Source of the DNA: Halarcobacter mediterraneus
GTDB lineage: Bacteria > Campylobacterota > Campylobacteria > Campylobacterales > Arcobacteraceae
DNA length: 64,000 nt
Direction: 5' to 3'
Assembly (NCBI RefSeq): GCF_004116625.1
Contig: NZ_NXIE01000002.1
Coordinates: 496,001-560,000, forward strand
Every line of letters begins with the position of its first letter. Positions within the stretch are counted from its first letter, which is position 1. The position numbers and the translations under genes are program-made. This document shows positions 27,855 to 43,323 of the stretch, piece after piece. Under the pieces are notes generated by a model. The model saw nothing but the letters and a program-made list of their open reading frames with translations. It did not search any database and was not told where the DNA came from.

Positions 27855-28891
27855 AAAAATATTATATCAAAAAGATATAAAAGGGTAGATAGGATATGTT
27901 TTAGTTCAAGAAGAACAACATTAAAAGCCCCATTTGGTTGGGTAGGATTTCAATGCATTATATGTTTTAGTTCAAGTAAAAAAAGAGTTTGAAAGTGATT
28001 CGGCTTTTGAATTTCAATACATTATATGTTTTGATTCAAGTCTATAATTTAAATGGAGATATTAATATCACTCCTGAATTTCAATACATTATATGTTTTG
28101 ATTCAAGTTCAAGTGAATTTAATAGACTTGTTGAAGCTTATTGATTTCAATACATTATATGTTTTGATTCAAGCTAAAATTGAACTAACTGCATATCTTC
28201 TAAAGTATGATTTCAATACATTATATGTTTTGATTCAAGACGATGTAAGAGACGAGGTAAATACACTAAGAAAATTTCAATACATTATATGTTTTGATTC
28301 AAGGGGTTAATACTTGGTCTATAATGGTTAAAAAACCTAGATTTCAATACATTATATGTTTTGATTCAAGATTGACTTAAAGAAGTATCTTCTAAACTCT
28401 CGAACATTTCAATACATTATATGTTTTGATTCAAGACACAAAGTATGAATGAATGGGTACAAGATGTTTTATTTCAATACATTATATGTTTTGATTCAAG
28501 CTAGGCTATTTTCTATTGATTTACTTGTTTCGTCTATTTCAATACATTATATGTTTTGATTCAAGATCTGCAGCTACACTTACCTTAGAACCTTTTATAT
28601 AATTTCAATACATTATATGTTTTGATTCAAGACACAGTCTGCTTTAGAATATTCTAAGGAAGGTACATTTCAATACATTATATGTTTTGATTCAAGAGAA
28701 ATAACTTTAGCTAAGATTAAAGGCAGAGATTGATTTCAATACATTATATGTTTTGATTCAAGGTAATTTTAGCTTGTGCTAATTCTCCAACAGAATAATT
28801 TCAATACATTATATGTTTTGATTCAAGGGTATAACGAGATAGTAAAAGGTGTGTCTCATAGATTTCAATACATTATATGTTTTGATTCAAG

Positions 28892-28993
28892 TTAGCAGAC
28901 CATGTCACGCCATTTTCTCCAATTTTTATTTCAATACATTATATGTTTTGATTCAAGATAACCCAAAGCCCACGCTTGAGCAATAGCTGTCCA
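28892..28993 (-). repeat. Duplicated two-spacer block, copy 1 (older side of array)
   Basis: Spacer 28892-28927 (begins TTAGCAGACCATG), one repeat, and spacer 28958-28993 (begins ATAACCCAAAGC) occur again, identical and in the same order, at 31508-31609. The spacers outside the block differ. Confidence 0.95.
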
Positions 28994-31507
28994 ATTTCAA
29001 TACATTATATGTTTTGATTCAAGGGTTCAATTCTTTTAGAAAATTATGAAACTGAAGAATTTCAATACATTATATGTTTTGATTCAAGATTACAGATATT
29101 ACAAAAGATCTAAAATCAATTTAATTTCAATACATTATATGTTTTGATTCAAGAATTCAAGATAGTAAATATCATAAGGAGATAGAAAAATTTCAATACA
29201 TTATATGTTTTGATTCAAGTGTAGCCATGCATCTACACTCTAAGAAAAGAGAGAAGAATTTCAATACATTATATGTTTTGATTCAAGTTAGTTGCTACTT
29301 TTTTCTCTCTTTCATCTATTTCTATTTCAATACATTATATGTTTTGATTCAAGTAAATATATAAAACCAGTTTGGGTTATGCCAGAACGATTTCAATACA
29401 TTATATGTTTTGATTCAAGTAAGCTAAAACAAATGCCAAATCTAAGTCGAGAAAATTTCAATACATTATATGTTTTGATTCAAGATTATAAATTCGCAAC
29501 TTTGTCAAGAGTTTATATTAATTTCAATACATTATATGTTTTGATTCAAGATGGACCATGGAAAAGAACTCTACAGTTTTGTAACTATTTCAATACATTA
29601 TATGTTTTGATTCAAGACTCCTACAACAGTAACTATAGTTCCTAGATTATTATTTCAATACATTATATGTTTTGATTCAAGTTAGGATTTAAGGTAAAAG
29701 ATTACCAAAAATCTAAATTTCAATACATTATATGTTTTGATTCAAGGCATATATAGCAATAAACAATTTACTATTTAGAACATTTCAATACATTATATGT
29801 TTTGATTCAAGAACCTATCTTTTTGCCAAAACTGTTTGTGTAAAATTATTTCAATACATTATATGTTTTGATTCAAGTGTTTCTTTTAAGCTTTTATGGA
29901 TATTGGAATATTTTATTTCAATACATTATATGTTTTGATTCAAGTAACTGCATAAGAGCCTGCATTTTCTAGCTCCACTAATTTCAATACATTATATGTT
30001 TTGATTCAAGTAAATATGGAAAAAGTATCGAATAGTGATATAGGATTTCAATACATTATATGTTTTGATTCAAGTACTTATTTAAAAACAAGAGTTCTTC
30101 TGTTCTTTTTATTTCAATACATTATATGTTTTGATTCAAGAATATTTTTATCTGTTTTTTAAATATTTTTCAATTTATTTCAATACATTATATGTTTTGA
30201 TTCAAGCTCAACTTTTTGCAAATGTTTACGGGCATATCTTATTTCAATACATTATATGTTTTGATTCAAGAAGTTGCTCTTCTTGTGTAAGATTTAATTC
30301 TTTAGTATTTCAATACATTATATGTTTTGATTCAAGTAGAGTAATCACTAATAGCTTCATAATAATTTTCCCAATTTCAATACATTATATGTTTTGATTC
30401 AAGTTGTTTAGCTTCTTTTAGTTTAAAAATCTCTGCTTTTATTTCAATACATTATATGTTTTGATTCAAGAAGATCTATTGCGCTGGAAATGGCAAAAAG
30501 AAAAATTTCAATACATTATATGTTTTGATTCAAGAACCTAAGCCTACATATAACTCAGAAAAAGAGGAATTTCAATACATTATATGTTTTGATTCAAGCA
30601 GATATAAACTTTAATCAAATTGCAACAACAATATTTCAATACATTATATGTTTTGATTCAAGTGGAGAAGTAACTGGGCAGGTATTTAGCGAAGGCGTAT
30701 TTCAATACATTATATGTTTTGATTCAAGGAACAATGGAAACAATTTAACGAGAAGTTAAATAAATTTCAATACATTATATGTTTTGATTCAAGCTAATCT
30801 AATCTCTATTTAATATTTTAAAATAATTATTTCAATACATTATATGTTTTGATTCAAGTCAAAATAGAAGCTATTAAAATTAAATCTTTAAGATTTCAAT
30901 ACATTATATGTTTTGATTCAAGCATTATAAAAAGCTAATCTTGCAATTTTTTCCTTATTTCAATACATTATATGTTTTGATTCAAGGCTTTTTAATAATT
31001 GACTTAGAAGCACAATACAAATTTCAATACATTATATGTTTTGATTCAAGACCTGCTAACGATTTCTCTATGCTAGACTTAGAAAGATTTCAATACATTA
31101 TATGTTTTGATTCAAGTTTATGCTTACCTCTTGCTCTATTGTGTCTAACAGTATTTCAATACATTATATGTTTTGATTCAAGTAAGACAATTAATAAGTA
31201 AGACTATTGTTAAAGCTTATTTCAATACATTATATGTTTTGATTCAAGGATGTAAAAGTCAAGATATTGACTTTTTTGATGTATTTCAATACATTATATG
31301 TTTTGATTCAAGTAAAGATTGTTCAAATAAATCACAAAAGAAATATGAATTTCAATACATTATATGTTTTGATTCAAGTTTGGTGTTACTTTTTGTAATC
31401 AATCTAACAATTATTTCAATACATTATATGTTTTGATTCAAGAGTAGTATAAACAAAAAGAAGAACAAGTAAAACAAATTTCAATACATTATATGTTTTG
31501 ATTCAAG

Positions 31508-31609
31508 TTAGCAGACCATGTCACGCCATTTTCTCCAATTTTTATTTCAATACATTATATGTTTTGATTCAAGATAACCCAAAGCCCACGCTTGAGCAAT
31601 AGCTGTCCA
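31508..31609 (-). repeat. Duplicated two-spacer block, copy 2 (younger side of array)
   Basis: Identical to 28892-28993: two 36-nt spacers and the repeat between them. About 39 other spacers separate the copies, so the block probably moved by recombination between repeats. Confidence 0.95.
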
Positions 31610-33799
31610 ATTTCAATACATTATATGTTTTGATTCAAGTACAGTTAAGTACTTTAAAGAAAGTATTTCAACCCTATTTCAATACATTATATGTTTTGAT
31701 TCAAGATGCATGGGTTAGTTCTGGAAACAAAGTACTTCCATTTCAATACATTATATGTTTTGATTCAAGAATGCCTCTAGTACGATAATAGTATCAATTG
31801 TCAAATTTCAATACATTATATGTTTTGATTCAAGTCATATTGAACCACATTTTAAGACTTTTTCAATTAAATTTCAATACATTATATGTTTTGATTCAAG
31901 TTAGCCCAAGAATCAGTAGTGTCTATTAAATCCAATATTTCAATACATTATATGTTTTGATTCAAGCCATAAGATGAGTTTTAGTAAAACTTTACCTCAA
32001 GAATTTCAATACATTATATGTTTTGATTCAAGAACTTTAATATTAATACACTCATTAAAAAAGTATCTATTTCAATACATTATATGTTTTGATTCAAGTA
32101 AATCTCTTTCAGATAAAGAGTAAAATTGATACTTATTTCAATACATTATATGTTTTGATTCAAGTAGGTCTTATAGGCGAAGCAGGTTATCCAGAAGCCG
32201 ATTTCAATACATTATATGTTTTGATTCAAGAGTTTTGCAAGTTCTTTTACCTCTTTGCTCTCTCCATTTCAATACATTATATGTTTTGATTCAAGTAAGA
32301 AAGTAATAGATCTATTAAAGACATTTCACAAATTTCAATACATTATATGTTTTGATTCAAGTTTAATTTAGAATTAACATTAGTCATTGCATCTGCTATT
32401 TCAATACATTATATGTTTTGATTCAAGGTCTCAAATTTAAATACATGAGGTTTTCCATCTTTATTTCAATACATTATATGTTTTGATTCAAGAGAAAAGG
32501 TGTTCCTTATGTTGCAAGAATGCAACTATTTCAATACATTATATGTTTTGATTCAAGCAAATGAGAAAGTAATGCTAAAACAAAATAACCTAAATTTCAA
32601 TACATTATATGTTTTGATTCAAGAAATCTTTTCTTTTTTGAAGCTTTTTAAATGCTACATTTCAATACATTATATGTTTTGATTCAAGGGCGAAATTGAC
32701 AGATCTATCCTTAAACCTTCAATATTTCAATACATTATATGTTTTGATTCAAGTTATGACGGTATTACAGATGGTTTTGAGGTAAATCCATTTCAATACA
32801 TTATATGTTTTGATTCAAGAAACACTTATAAAGAAGCATGGCTTTTCTATTGGATTTCAATACATTATATGTTTTGATTCAAGTTTTGCATCTGTTAACT
32901 CGTCCATACTTTCTAACAGATTTCAATACATTATATGTTTTGATTCAAGTCTTTTTGTTCTTTTTAGTCCTATATATTTTTCTATTTCAATACATTATAT
33001 GTTTTGATTCAAGTCAAAGAAAACTATCTCTTTTTAGTTATCTATACAATTTCAATACATTATATGTTTTGATTCAAGTAAAGATAACCTTTGACCTTCA
33101 ATCTCTACAGTAATTTCAATACATTATATGTTTTGATTCAAGATAATCTAATTCAATTTTAAAAAAGGGATTTCAAATTTCAATACATTATATGTTTTGA
33201 TTCAAGCTGTATTCAGTCATCTTTTATCCTTTAATTTAATAATTTCAATACATTATATGTTTTGATTCAAGAGATAGAAACAATCTTTTCTATTTTGCGA
33301 CCAATAAATTTCAATACATTATATGTTTTGATTCAAGGTATCTCTAGCATTAATAAAATTTTGGTATTCATTTATTTCAATACATTATATGTTTTGATTC
33401 AAGCTAGGTAAATAGCATTAAGGTCATCTGCGTCACTCATTTCAATACATTATATGTTTTGATTCAAGTATAATTGTTGCATTATGGTTTTCTTACTCTA
33501 AAATATTTCAATACATTATATGTTTTGATTCAAGACAAAAAGAATCAGGCTGTAGAAATGTTATATCAAAATTTCAATACATTATATGTTTTGATTCAAG
33601 ACCTTGTCTGTGTCTAGTTGCACAAGCTGAAAGCGTATTTCAATACATTATATGTTTTGATTCAAGAAGAGGTATAAGAGTAGTAATAGATGATATTTTA
33701 TGATTTCAATACATTATATGTTTTGATTCAAGTTTCTTAAAAAGCATTATTTGAAGATTACTAGCACTTATTTCAATACATTATATGTTTTGATTCAAG

Positions 33800-39013: not shown

Positions 39014-41605
<2,592 letters not shown>

Positions 41606-41616
<11 letters not shown>

Positions 41617-42292
41617 TATCACTCCAAACTATTAAATCTATTTTTTGTGCTATTTTTAATTCACCATTTTCATAAATATCATTAAAATCATCTAATTCTT
41701 TGACTAAAATATAAACATCTTTGTTTAACCAATAAATTACTTCTAATATTTCGTTATAAGCTTCTTGTAGCTTTTCATAATTAATTATAGTTTCATAATG
41801 AAAAATTTTATTTCTTAATTTTCTAATTTCATCAATTTTAATTCTAAGTTGTTTATTTGTTAGAGAATTTTTTGGCATACTAGGAAAAATATCTTTTCTA
41901 TATTTATTCCAAATTTTTTGCTCATATTCACCTTTAAACAATGCAGTCCAAAAACCAAGGTTTAATTCCGATATTATCCTACCTGAGGTTTTTTCTTTTT
42001 TAATATTTCGTTTAGCTTCAACAATTTTCTCATAAGATTTTTTATTTAAGAAGTTTTCTATATCAAACCAAAACTCATTATCCAATTCTTTTGACAATAT
42101 ATTATGTATATTATTTCTTAAGGTAATTTCATATTTTTGCAAGGAAAAGTATAAAGATTTAGATAGTTCTATATTGTATAAATATTTTATAATAAGTGTT
42201 TTTTTATCATTTGTATGACAAATATTTGAATAGTGTTTTAATCTATCTTTAGATATTGAAGATTCTAAACTTTTAAGTAATAAATCATTCAC
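41606..42292 (-). CDS. Abi_2 family (AbiD/AbiF-like) HEPN ribonuclease toxin inside the cas operon
   Basis: A 228-residue Abi_2 (PF07751-type) protein. The second half shows the HEPN active-site pattern Arg160-Asn161...His165 (RKLRNKIFHYE) after TSGRIISELNLGFWTALF, the most recognisable family block. Residues 59-63 (RNNIH) give an earlier helix of the same kind. Abi_2/AbiF proteins act in phage defence, and many HEPN proteins are RNases, so growth arrest by RNA cleavage is inferred. The start is GTG with GGGGGAAG 6 bases upstream. It is preceded by a structured RNA and a good promoter, and its end overlaps cas8b by 11 bp. Such a gene is not a standard part of type I-B operons. Confidence 0.85.
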
Positions 42293-42332: not shown

Positions 42333-42402
42333 ATCCTTGTAGTGCCCAGGTGTTCCTCTCCTGTAAATTTTACAGTGAAGAGCCTGGGAGATGCTTGATA
42401 TT
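42330..42402 (-). ncRNA. Structured RNA upstream of the Abi_2 gene (abiF-motif-like candidate)
   Basis: Read leftward the segment folds as nested helices: CCCAGG (42388-42383) with CCTGGG (42350-42345), and an inner hairpin CTGTAAA/TTTACAG (42375-42361). Between them lie conserved-looking internal loops containing GAGAGGAACA. AATATC/GATATT (42402-42397 and 42335-42330) can close the base. It is strikingly GC-rich for this genome. It starts right after a strong promoter and ends about 38 bp before the Abi_2 start. A structured 'abiF RNA' is known next to abiF-type genes; assigning this one to it is inference. It could also be a 5' UTR regulator. Confidence 0.6.
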
Positions 42403-42405
42403 TGA

Positions 42406-42434
42406 ATTTTATCTTAAAATTATTCTTTTGTCAA
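42406..42434 (-). promoter_or_regulatory. Sigma-70 promoter for the structured RNA and Abi_2-cas operon
   Basis: On the minus strand: TTGACA (42434-42429), 17 bp, TAAAAT (42411-42406), matching consensus at 11 of 12 positions. Transcription would start near 42399 at the base of the structured RNA and continue into Abi_2, cas8b and the rest. This separates cas6 from the other cas genes. Confidence 0.7.
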
Positions 42435-42443
42435 GTTTCAATA

Positions 42444-42477
42444 ATATCATAGAATAATGTATATTATTCTATGATAT
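42444..42477. repeat. Perfect 15-bp inverted repeat between cas6 and the Abi_2 promoter
   Basis: ATATCATAGAATAAT, loop GTAT, then its exact complement. It ends 10 bp before the -35 of the leftward promoter. It could end the cas6 transcript, though no U-run follows, or be an operator for a dimeric repressor. Confidence 0.6.
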
Positions 42478-42521
42478 TTAAGCCTTAATATTTTACTTAG
42501 ACTTCTTTTAGTATCATTTCT

Positions 42522-42603
42522 TAGTAAAATTACTCTATTAAACCTTGAACCAAAACATAAAATGTATTGAAATATAATTTCATAAAATAAAGTAATTTTA
42601 CTA
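42522..42603. repeat. 13-bp inverted repeat flanking the orphan CRISPR repeat
   Basis: TAGTAAAATTACT (42522-42534) and its exact complement AGTAATTTTACTA (42591-42603) enclose the orphan repeat. The right arm overlaps the cas6 stop codon. Each arm is itself nearly palindromic, so they may be two operator sites or an RNA stem. Confidence 0.6.
42544..42573 (+). repeat. Orphan CRISPR repeat downstream of cas6, opposite in orientation to the array
   Basis: The plus strand matches the crRNA-sense repeat at 28 of 30 positions, beginning CTTGAACCAAAACATAAAATG and ending TATTGAAAT when read in two parts. The changes are at position 7 and in the loop of the short ACAT/ATGT hairpin. The hairpin stem and the 8-nt handle ATTGAAAT are kept. 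A rightward transcript would carry a usable handle followed by ATAATTTC. The leftward cas6 mRNA would instead carry an anti-repeat complementary to all array repeats. Confidence 0.85.
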
Positions 42604-43323
42604 CTTCCATAAACAAAACCCTCCACCATAACTTTGTTTCTCACCAATTCCACAAGCCAATGCAACAAAAGCCAATTTCTGACTTATTTCATCTTCATTT
42701 GGTACTATTTTAAATTTATTTCCAAAGAGTCTTACCGTTCTATCATTTTTAGTGAAAAATATTGAATGTGGTACTTTGTTTTTCATCTCAAAAAGTTGTA
42801 TAAAATTTTGGATAGGTTTTAAATCTTCACCATAAAAAGCTTTGTATTTTCTAAGTAAATTATCTTGTAATTGATTTTGTAAAATAAAAATATCATCATT
42901 TGTAGTCCAAAACTTTTGTTTTTCACCTTTTTGCCTTTTTAATGAAACTATCACAGGTGTTGCAGTATAAAGTTCTGTTATAAAAAACTGCTTTATATTT
43001 TTTTTACTTGTTTCTATAACTTGAAGATTTGGATTATTGATATTTTCTCTTAAAAGTTTAGACAATTTATCTATAAACTTTTCATCTAAACTTCTTAAAG
43101 AGAAGCTATAAGATTGACCTTTTTTATATATCTTATCTTTTTCAAGAGGATAAAAACCACCGAAACAATAAGATTTAAAAACTCTTTTTTGGGAATGTAG
43201 ATTTTTTAATTCTACATCTTTTGACATAGAATAGTTTATATATTTTGACAAGATATCAAAAATATTCTTATATTCTATATCCTTCTTTATGATTACCATA
43301 CATATTAATTCAAAATATTTCAT
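42601..43323 (-). CDS. cas6: CRISPR RNA endoribonuclease Cas6
   Basis: Cuts the pre-crRNA within each repeat. The 240-residue RAMP-fold protein starts MKYFELICMVIIKKDIEYKNIF. It ends with the Cas6 glycine-rich loop GIGEKQSYGGGFC (225-237), the clearest family mark. 'FKIVPNEDEISQKLAFVALACGIGEK' precedes it. It is the first cas gene and is separated from the Abi_2-cas8b operon by 308 bp holding several signals. Its stop codon lies inside an inverted repeat. Confidence 0.93.
   Translation of the reverse strand: MKYFELICMVIIKKDIEYKNIFDILSKYINYSMSKDVELKNLHSQKRVFKSYCFGGFYPLEKDKIYKKGQSYSFSLRSLDEKFIDKLSKLLRENINNPNLQVIETSKKNIKQFFITELYTATPVIVSLKRQKGEKQKFWTTNDDIFILQNQLQDNLLRKYKAFYGEDLKPIQNFIQLFEMKNKVPHSIFFTKNDRTVRLFGNKFKIVPNEDEISQKLAFVALACGIGEKQSYGGGFCLWK

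Follow-up and report, generated by a model that had tools for sequence, protein, structure and literature searches.

A reversed CRISPR repeat beside cas6 as part of a probable creA-like module proposed to control an AbiF-like toxin in Halarcobacter mediterraneus

Does a single CRISPR repeat, lying in reverse directly after cas6 and far from its array, serve the cas operon that contains it, or is it a leftover? We examined this question in a 64,000-nt window of Halarcobacter mediterraneus DNA (contig NZ_NXIE01000002.1, positions 496,001 to 560,000), whose CRISPR array (27947–33799, minus strand) consists of 89 identical repeats and one degenerate trailer repeat (27947–27976). The orphan repeat (42544–42573, plus strand; CTTGAACCAAAACATAAAATGTATTGAAAT) matches the array repeat (CTTGAATCAAAACATATAATGTATTGAAAT, crRNA sense on the minus strand) at 28 of 30 positions and on the opposite strand, as a sequence-only reading of this DNA had stated. 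Across the whole genome, a pattern that admits both repeat variants occurs 89 times on the minus strand, always in the array, and once on the plus strand, at the orphan. When up to three mismatches are allowed, the window contains 91 matches, namely the 89 array units, the trailer unit and the orphan, and none is expected from shuffled sequences. The orphan is the sole such off-array repeat in the genome and has the form by which creA genes are recognized, that of an ectopic, diverged repeat outside the array and within the cas locus; a search of Rfam with it returned only a sub-threshold match to CRISPR-DR3.

The two mismatches are confined to position 7, which precedes the stem, and position 17, within the 3-nt loop, and consequently the ACAT/ATGT stem and the 8-nt handle ATTGAAAT (42566–42573, with the predicted Cas6 cut after 42565) are intact, just as had been noticed before. 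That reading assigned both changes to the orphan. C at position 7, however, is found in all related arrays that we read and in the window's own trailer unit, so that this change probably arose in the array, and only the loop change at position 17 appears to be peculiar to the orphan, which matches the array repeat of the relative G288 (L091; CTTGAACCAAAACATATAATGTATTGAAAT) at 29 of 30 positions. With C at position 7, the trailer repeat suggests a later spread of T7 through the array. Within the array, two adjacent spacers occur twice in the same order (28892–28993 and 31508–31609), a segmental duplication of repeat-spacer units.

The stretch between cas6 (42601–43323, minus strand; TIGR01877, Cas6b by PADLOC) and cas8b (39907–41622, minus strand; NCBIfam, Cas8b by PADLOC at 2e-110) had been taken for an empty gap, which it is not, as it contains a gene and a structured RNA. 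The gene (41606–42292, minus strand) encodes a putative 228-aa AbiF-like HEPN toxin and overlaps cas8b, which is followed by cas7, cas5, cas3, cas4, cas1 and cas2. Weak sequence scores (PADLOC PD-T4-5 at 7e-13 and AbiD at 0.0015) and one fold match argue with moderate strength for the AbiF assignment: the protein's structural model (pLDDT 90) has a sole confident PDB match, 8vz6, which is PbAbiF bound to its ncRNA (Foldseek probability 1.00, TM 0.52), and an E-value of 0.014 makes this match only a moderate one. A sequence search of the PDB with the AbiF-like family found no relative. The fold is joined by an R-x4-H HEPN motif, within the R-x4-6-H range of AbiF, whose residues R160 and H165 are invariant in an alignment of 15 proteins.

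The RNA (42338–42392, minus strand; z-score −3.42) resembles AbiFr, has conserved counterparts in G288, G014 and G559 that include two compensatory pairs, and is a candidate antitoxin of the AbiF-like gene, which fits the known AbiF plan of a toxin neutralized by its associated RNA (PMC12373285, PMC12737573). A search with a model of this RNA located an AbiFr-like element upstream of an AbiF homologue outside cas genes in G140; Rfam, searched with this region and with the loci of AbiF homologues, contains no family for the element. Among further observations, three more matches to the RNA model (L158, L160 and L161) have no AbiF homologue in the DNA examined, and in G014 an AbiFr-like RNA without an AbiF gene lies between cas6 and cas8b (L016, 9263–9322), either an orphan antitoxin RNA or a decayed cassette. 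AbiF homologues elsewhere in Arcobacteraceae (L074–L088) carry a different short upstream hairpin, CCCAAGC...GACTTACTGGG, again with no Rfam match.

A strong match to the promoter consensus (11 of 12; TTGACA-17-TAAAAT, 42434–42406, minus strand) precedes this AbiFr-AbiF-cas8b unit, and it is beside this promoter that the orphan's guide finds its match. Positions 1–21 of the guide (psi-spacer, 42574–42609, plus strand) match 42441–42461 (plus strand) except at 6, 12 and 18, which are the bases that Cascade does not read. The PAM of this candidate Cascade target, or pseudo-protospacer, is TCA (42438–42440, plus strand), and its PAM side adjoins the −35 of the toxin promoter. The PAM together with positions 1–17 (6 and 12 free) matches once in the 64 kb and never in 100 shuffles. 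In experiments on the CreA of H. hubeiense, positions 1–5 and 7–11 were required and positions 6 and 12 dispensable (PMC8501985); the guide studied here matches the adjacent promoter, next to a functional PAM, at all of the required positions.

The PAM is confirmed independently, since TCA or CCA stands at real protospacers of this CRISPR family, taken from the genomes of relatives. Spacer 28 of the window's array matches a stretch of G014 (L094), probably a mobile element, at 35 of 36 positions with TCA in front. For a spacer of G137, the matching stretches in G421, G271 and G412 carry CCA, and the one in G411 carries CCT. Comparison of the array spacers with phages and plasmids gave no convincing protospacers, and one scan of viral contigs gave none. 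Overlapping the target are a candidate plus-strand promoter (TTGTCA-16-TAGAAT, 42428–42455; 10 of 12 consensus bases), which is not conserved in relatives, and a 36-nt palindrome (42443–42478) between the divergent promoter-like sites. The palindrome may serve as a repressor site or represent a duplicated target; no PAM accompanies its other half.

We now consider the inverted repeat that surrounds the orphan, which the earlier reading described correctly as exact, 13 bp long and covering the cas6 stop codon with one arm. Its 5′ arm (42522–42534, plus strand; TAGTAAAATTACT) pairs with a 3′ arm (42591–42603, plus strand; AGTAATTTTACTA) that is the distal part of the guide and contains the stop codon (42601–42603), and RNA folded from arm to arm has an energy of −14.5 kcal/mol (z-score −4.65). 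Guide positions 1–17 (42574–42590) remain outside the stem, and guide and promoter cease to match at about the start of the arm. A −10-like hexamer, TATCAT (42512–42517, plus strand), weak by itself, lies 4 nt upstream of the 5′ arm as a candidate start of the creA RNA. The 5′ end of the transcript probably coincides with this arm or lies close to it, and the RNA, which we infer to begin near the arm, would fold into a closed hairpin; this outer hairpin of upstream arm and distal guide probably protects or defines the RNA's ends. At the 3′ end, neither a second repeat nor an intrinsic terminator was found. We rejected a likeness to a second repeat at the cas6 3′ end, searched by eye, because cas6 coding explains it; the inverted repeat as an intrinsic terminator, for want of a U-tract; and the guide's 13-bp match to 42522–42534 as a Cascade target, which has neither seed match nor PAM.

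To learn whether this arrangement is conserved, we inspected the sequence following cas6 at more than 50 loci of Campylobacterota and found the reversed repeat in seven: the window, G007 (L022), G222 (L031), G138 (L045), G556 (L149), G583 (L151) and G559 (L152). G007 and G222 share one creA and were counted once, leaving six independent loci. In each of the seven, the guide finds a match in the neighbouring promoter region beside a TCA or CCA PAM, which in L022 and L031 directly abuts TTGACA. Across the six, guide positions 1–5, 7–11 and 13–15 match in every locus, position 6 in two and position 12 in one, and the match decays after positions 15–18; shuffled upstream regions yield such a site at most once in 3000 (per-locus null ≤0.0003). 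The orphan repeats of the other loci match their own arrays at 19–26 of 30 positions, and the handle follows the type of the host: it is ATTGAAAT in the window and ATTTAAAY in loci whose host array carries ATTTAAAC, with two of eight bases differing from the host repeat in G007 and G222.

The stem is conserved in the same loci. In all six, RNA upstream of the repeat pairs with the guide from positions ~17–21 to ~30–34, although the arms are of three unrelated sequences (window; AGCAACA type; L152), and pairing this good occurs in only 0–5 of 1000 shuffles. Conservation was scored by cross-locus duplex energies, by which the arms of the window and of L152 each have their own partner as the best one; pair counts from a MAFFT alignment of all six were uninformative because the arms did not align in register. 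A −10 hexamer with five or six of six consensus bases precedes the 5′ arm by 3–8 nt in every locus. Each hexamer has a shuffle frequency of 0.06–0.23, all six together are unlikely by chance, and the one in L151 belongs to a full TTGACA-17-TACAAT promoter; the plus-strand promoter in the window is weak by consensus.

What lies behind the targeted promoter varies. G559 repeats the window's order of cas6, creA, promoter, AbiFr, AbiF and cas8b, and in G007, G222, G138 and G583 a small hydrophobic peptide (for example, MKLFTSVFKVLKDILIALYLIIKIYREL or MNIISTIIKSIWEIVLILHTIIKLYKEL) and then cas8 follow the promoter, so that three of the six independent loci have a peptide in place of AbiF. These peptides (L022, L031, L045 and L151) are ~28–31 aa long, end in I-K-(L/I)-(Y/F)-(K/R)-E-L and are candidate small-peptide toxins. 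The simplest history would be an exchange of payloads at a fixed, Cascade-controlled site. The same loci support the argument against random decay that the earlier reading drew from the window, as guide-target periodicity, PAM and stem are kept in six independent cases. It had also held that relatives lacking the repeat would speak against a function; such relatives exist (G014, G015, G137 and G288), but the promoter and the target are missing there too, and hence the module is absent as a whole. A functional reversed repeat that would yield a small RNA cut by Cas6 after 42565 fits the conserved architecture, the host-type handle and the PAM-flanked target, while the guide, target, promoter and toxin had gone unnoticed.

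From the sequence, the match, its PAM, their conservation and the predicted fold, we infer how transcription, processing, binding, repression and toxicity may be connected. The orphan is very probably the single repeat of a plus-strand creA-like gene, whose product would act as a Cascade-guided repressor of promoter 42434–42406. A short RNA would start near the 5′ arm (42522) and be cut by Cas6 after 42565, the processed RNA being predicted to begin ATTGAAATATAATTTC; its handle and guide would be loaded into Cascade, and Cascade bound at the target would block RNA polymerase at the promoter. Because guide-target pairing stops at ~17–21 nt, Cas3 is not expected to cut; in another system, type I-B guides of ≤26 nt repress without cleavage (PMC10551041). 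The promoter would drive the AbiFr-like RNA, the AbiF-like toxin, cas8b and the remaining cas genes, and intact Cascade would keep the toxin low. As one promoter feeds AbiF, cas8b, cas7 and cas5, less Cascade would lead both to more Cascade and to more toxin. Loss of Cascade, or its inhibition by an anti-CRISPR, would increase output from the promoter and provide more Cascade, correcting the loss, and a failure of this self-correction would result in net AbiF toxicity. The AbiFr-like RNA would be a second antitoxin, buffering small rises or low expression.

Whether the module mainly guards a toxin or mainly tunes the cas genes is a separate question, on which we lean toward toxin guarding, with less confidence than toward the guide itself. 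A CreR-like autoregulation would be built in either way, since the toxin shares its promoter with Cascade genes. Like a CreR, a crRNA-like RNA that autoregulates cas genes, the guide targets its own cas promoter, here the one that precedes AbiF and the overlapping cas8b and feeds the other Cascade genes. The RNA may accordingly do nothing else, with the AbiF gene a passenger under its own AbiFr RNA. CreRs are described as widespread in type I systems in a review (PMC12737573), L149 keeps the creA layout but shows, over the stretch read, no clear toxin frame, and G288 has AbiFr-AbiF directly after cas6 without creA, so that AbiF is not always dependent on creA. Against this reading, a toxin-like gene comes first in the unit in five of the six independent loci, with two unrelated payloads at one place, which is the pattern of CreTA and CrePA. 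CreRs, according to the same review (PMC12737573), generally have no coupled toxin gene, whereas the window has AbiF at the head of the unit. Pure cas tuning is consequently a minority possibility in our judgment, and it is compatible with toxin guarding.

Three further explanations fare worse. The inverted repeat could be a stem-loop of the cas6 mRNA, for 3′-end protection or attenuation, with the repeat incidental; the stem is conserved, and in both the window and G222 the cas6 stop codon overlaps one of the arms. The arm lies downstream of the stop in G138, G556 and G583, however, there is no U-tract, a plus-strand −10 hexamer precedes the arm in each locus, and a crRNA-type repeat, handle, guide and target accompany the stem wherever it occurs, which leaves this explanation improbable. 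A decoy is less probable still: Racrs, RNA anti-CRISPRs, are likewise solitary repeat units processed by Cas6 (PMC10651486) and would here sequester Cas6 and Cas7, but the orphan sits in a host cas operon rather than a phage, and a decoy has no need of the PAM-flanked match with the right periodicity found in six loci. That a single, reversed copy near cas genes is a functionless leftover of a former array, or of off-target Cas1–Cas2 insertion, is hardly credible given periodicity, PAM and stem in six independent loci.

Read as a guarded toxin, the module would work like CreTA or CrePA and CreR (PMC8501985, PMC9458426, PMC12737573). It shares with CreTA (haloarchaeal type I-B and Acinetobacter type I-F) a repeat placed ectopically within the cas locus (in H. 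hispanica it lies between cas6 and cas8), a crRNA-like guide whose seed 1–5 and 7–11 matches an adjacent promoter by a PAM, and a presumable need for Cas6 and Cascade. Unlike CreTA, it has a single repeat, a toxin that shares its promoter with cas8b and a guide that pairs through its distal half with upstream RNA in a conserved stem; and, in place of the RNA toxin of CreTA in the strict sense (type VIII), a mini-ORF that sequesters a rare tRNA, the payload is a 228-aa AbiF-like protein or, in relatives, a small peptide. CrePA, as described in the review PMC12737573, pairs a protein toxin, typically though not universally KilA-N, with repression by CreA-Cascade; the window has a protein toxin under putative crRNA-like repression as well, with an HEPN/AbiF fold, no KilA-N match and its own candidate RNA antitoxin. 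With AbiF and its AbiFr or RCd22 RNA, a type III-like toxin-antitoxin, the window shares the AbiF fold and a short nested hairpin RNA upstream, and differs in that its copy belongs to a type I-B cas operon with a putative Cascade-targeted promoter and that its RNA has no Rfam match. Two features would appear to be new among CRISPR-regulated toxin-antitoxins (CreTA/CrePA): the AbiF payload, doubly controlled by RNA, and the bipartite guide, whose distal half closes a hairpin. Our literature search found neither a CreA-controlled AbiF nor any Campylobacterota module resembling CreA; as the primary CrePA and CreR papers lay outside it, absence is unproven.

If the toxin-guarding reading is true, AbiF, whose toxin family is considered ancestral to Cas13 (PMC12737573), is guarded by a type I Cascade, two RNA-antitoxin systems are combined in one operon, and an RNA-cutting toxin encoded within the CRISPR operon would be set free if CRISPR is lost or blocked. 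The range of CRISPR-regulated toxins would then include Campylobacterota, in which AbiF and a small hydrophobic peptide would be interchangeable payloads of one fixed site. How a natural guide is held to repression without cleavage would also become testable, as target pairing ends approximately where the conserved stem begins.

A more speculative version of the guide, which we consider doubtful, is a closed bipartite form: a split, circularly permuted crRNA that represses without cutting and guards AbiF under two RNA controls. Its distal half would pair with RNA upstream of the same repeat and the products would stay annealed after a single Cas6 cut, one repeat thus supplying the 5′ handle and, via the stem, a Cas6-bound 3′ hairpin. 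Because the free guide would be only ~16–20 nt long, Cascade would repress and not cut. Another fold involves the handle and the guide start, which in the window can form a short hairpin, UGAAAU-AUA-AUUUCA (42568–42582). In G222 and G007 both of its sides are changed (UCAAAC-AUA-GUUUGA), and it is absent in L045; where present, such pairing might hinder loading into Cascade.
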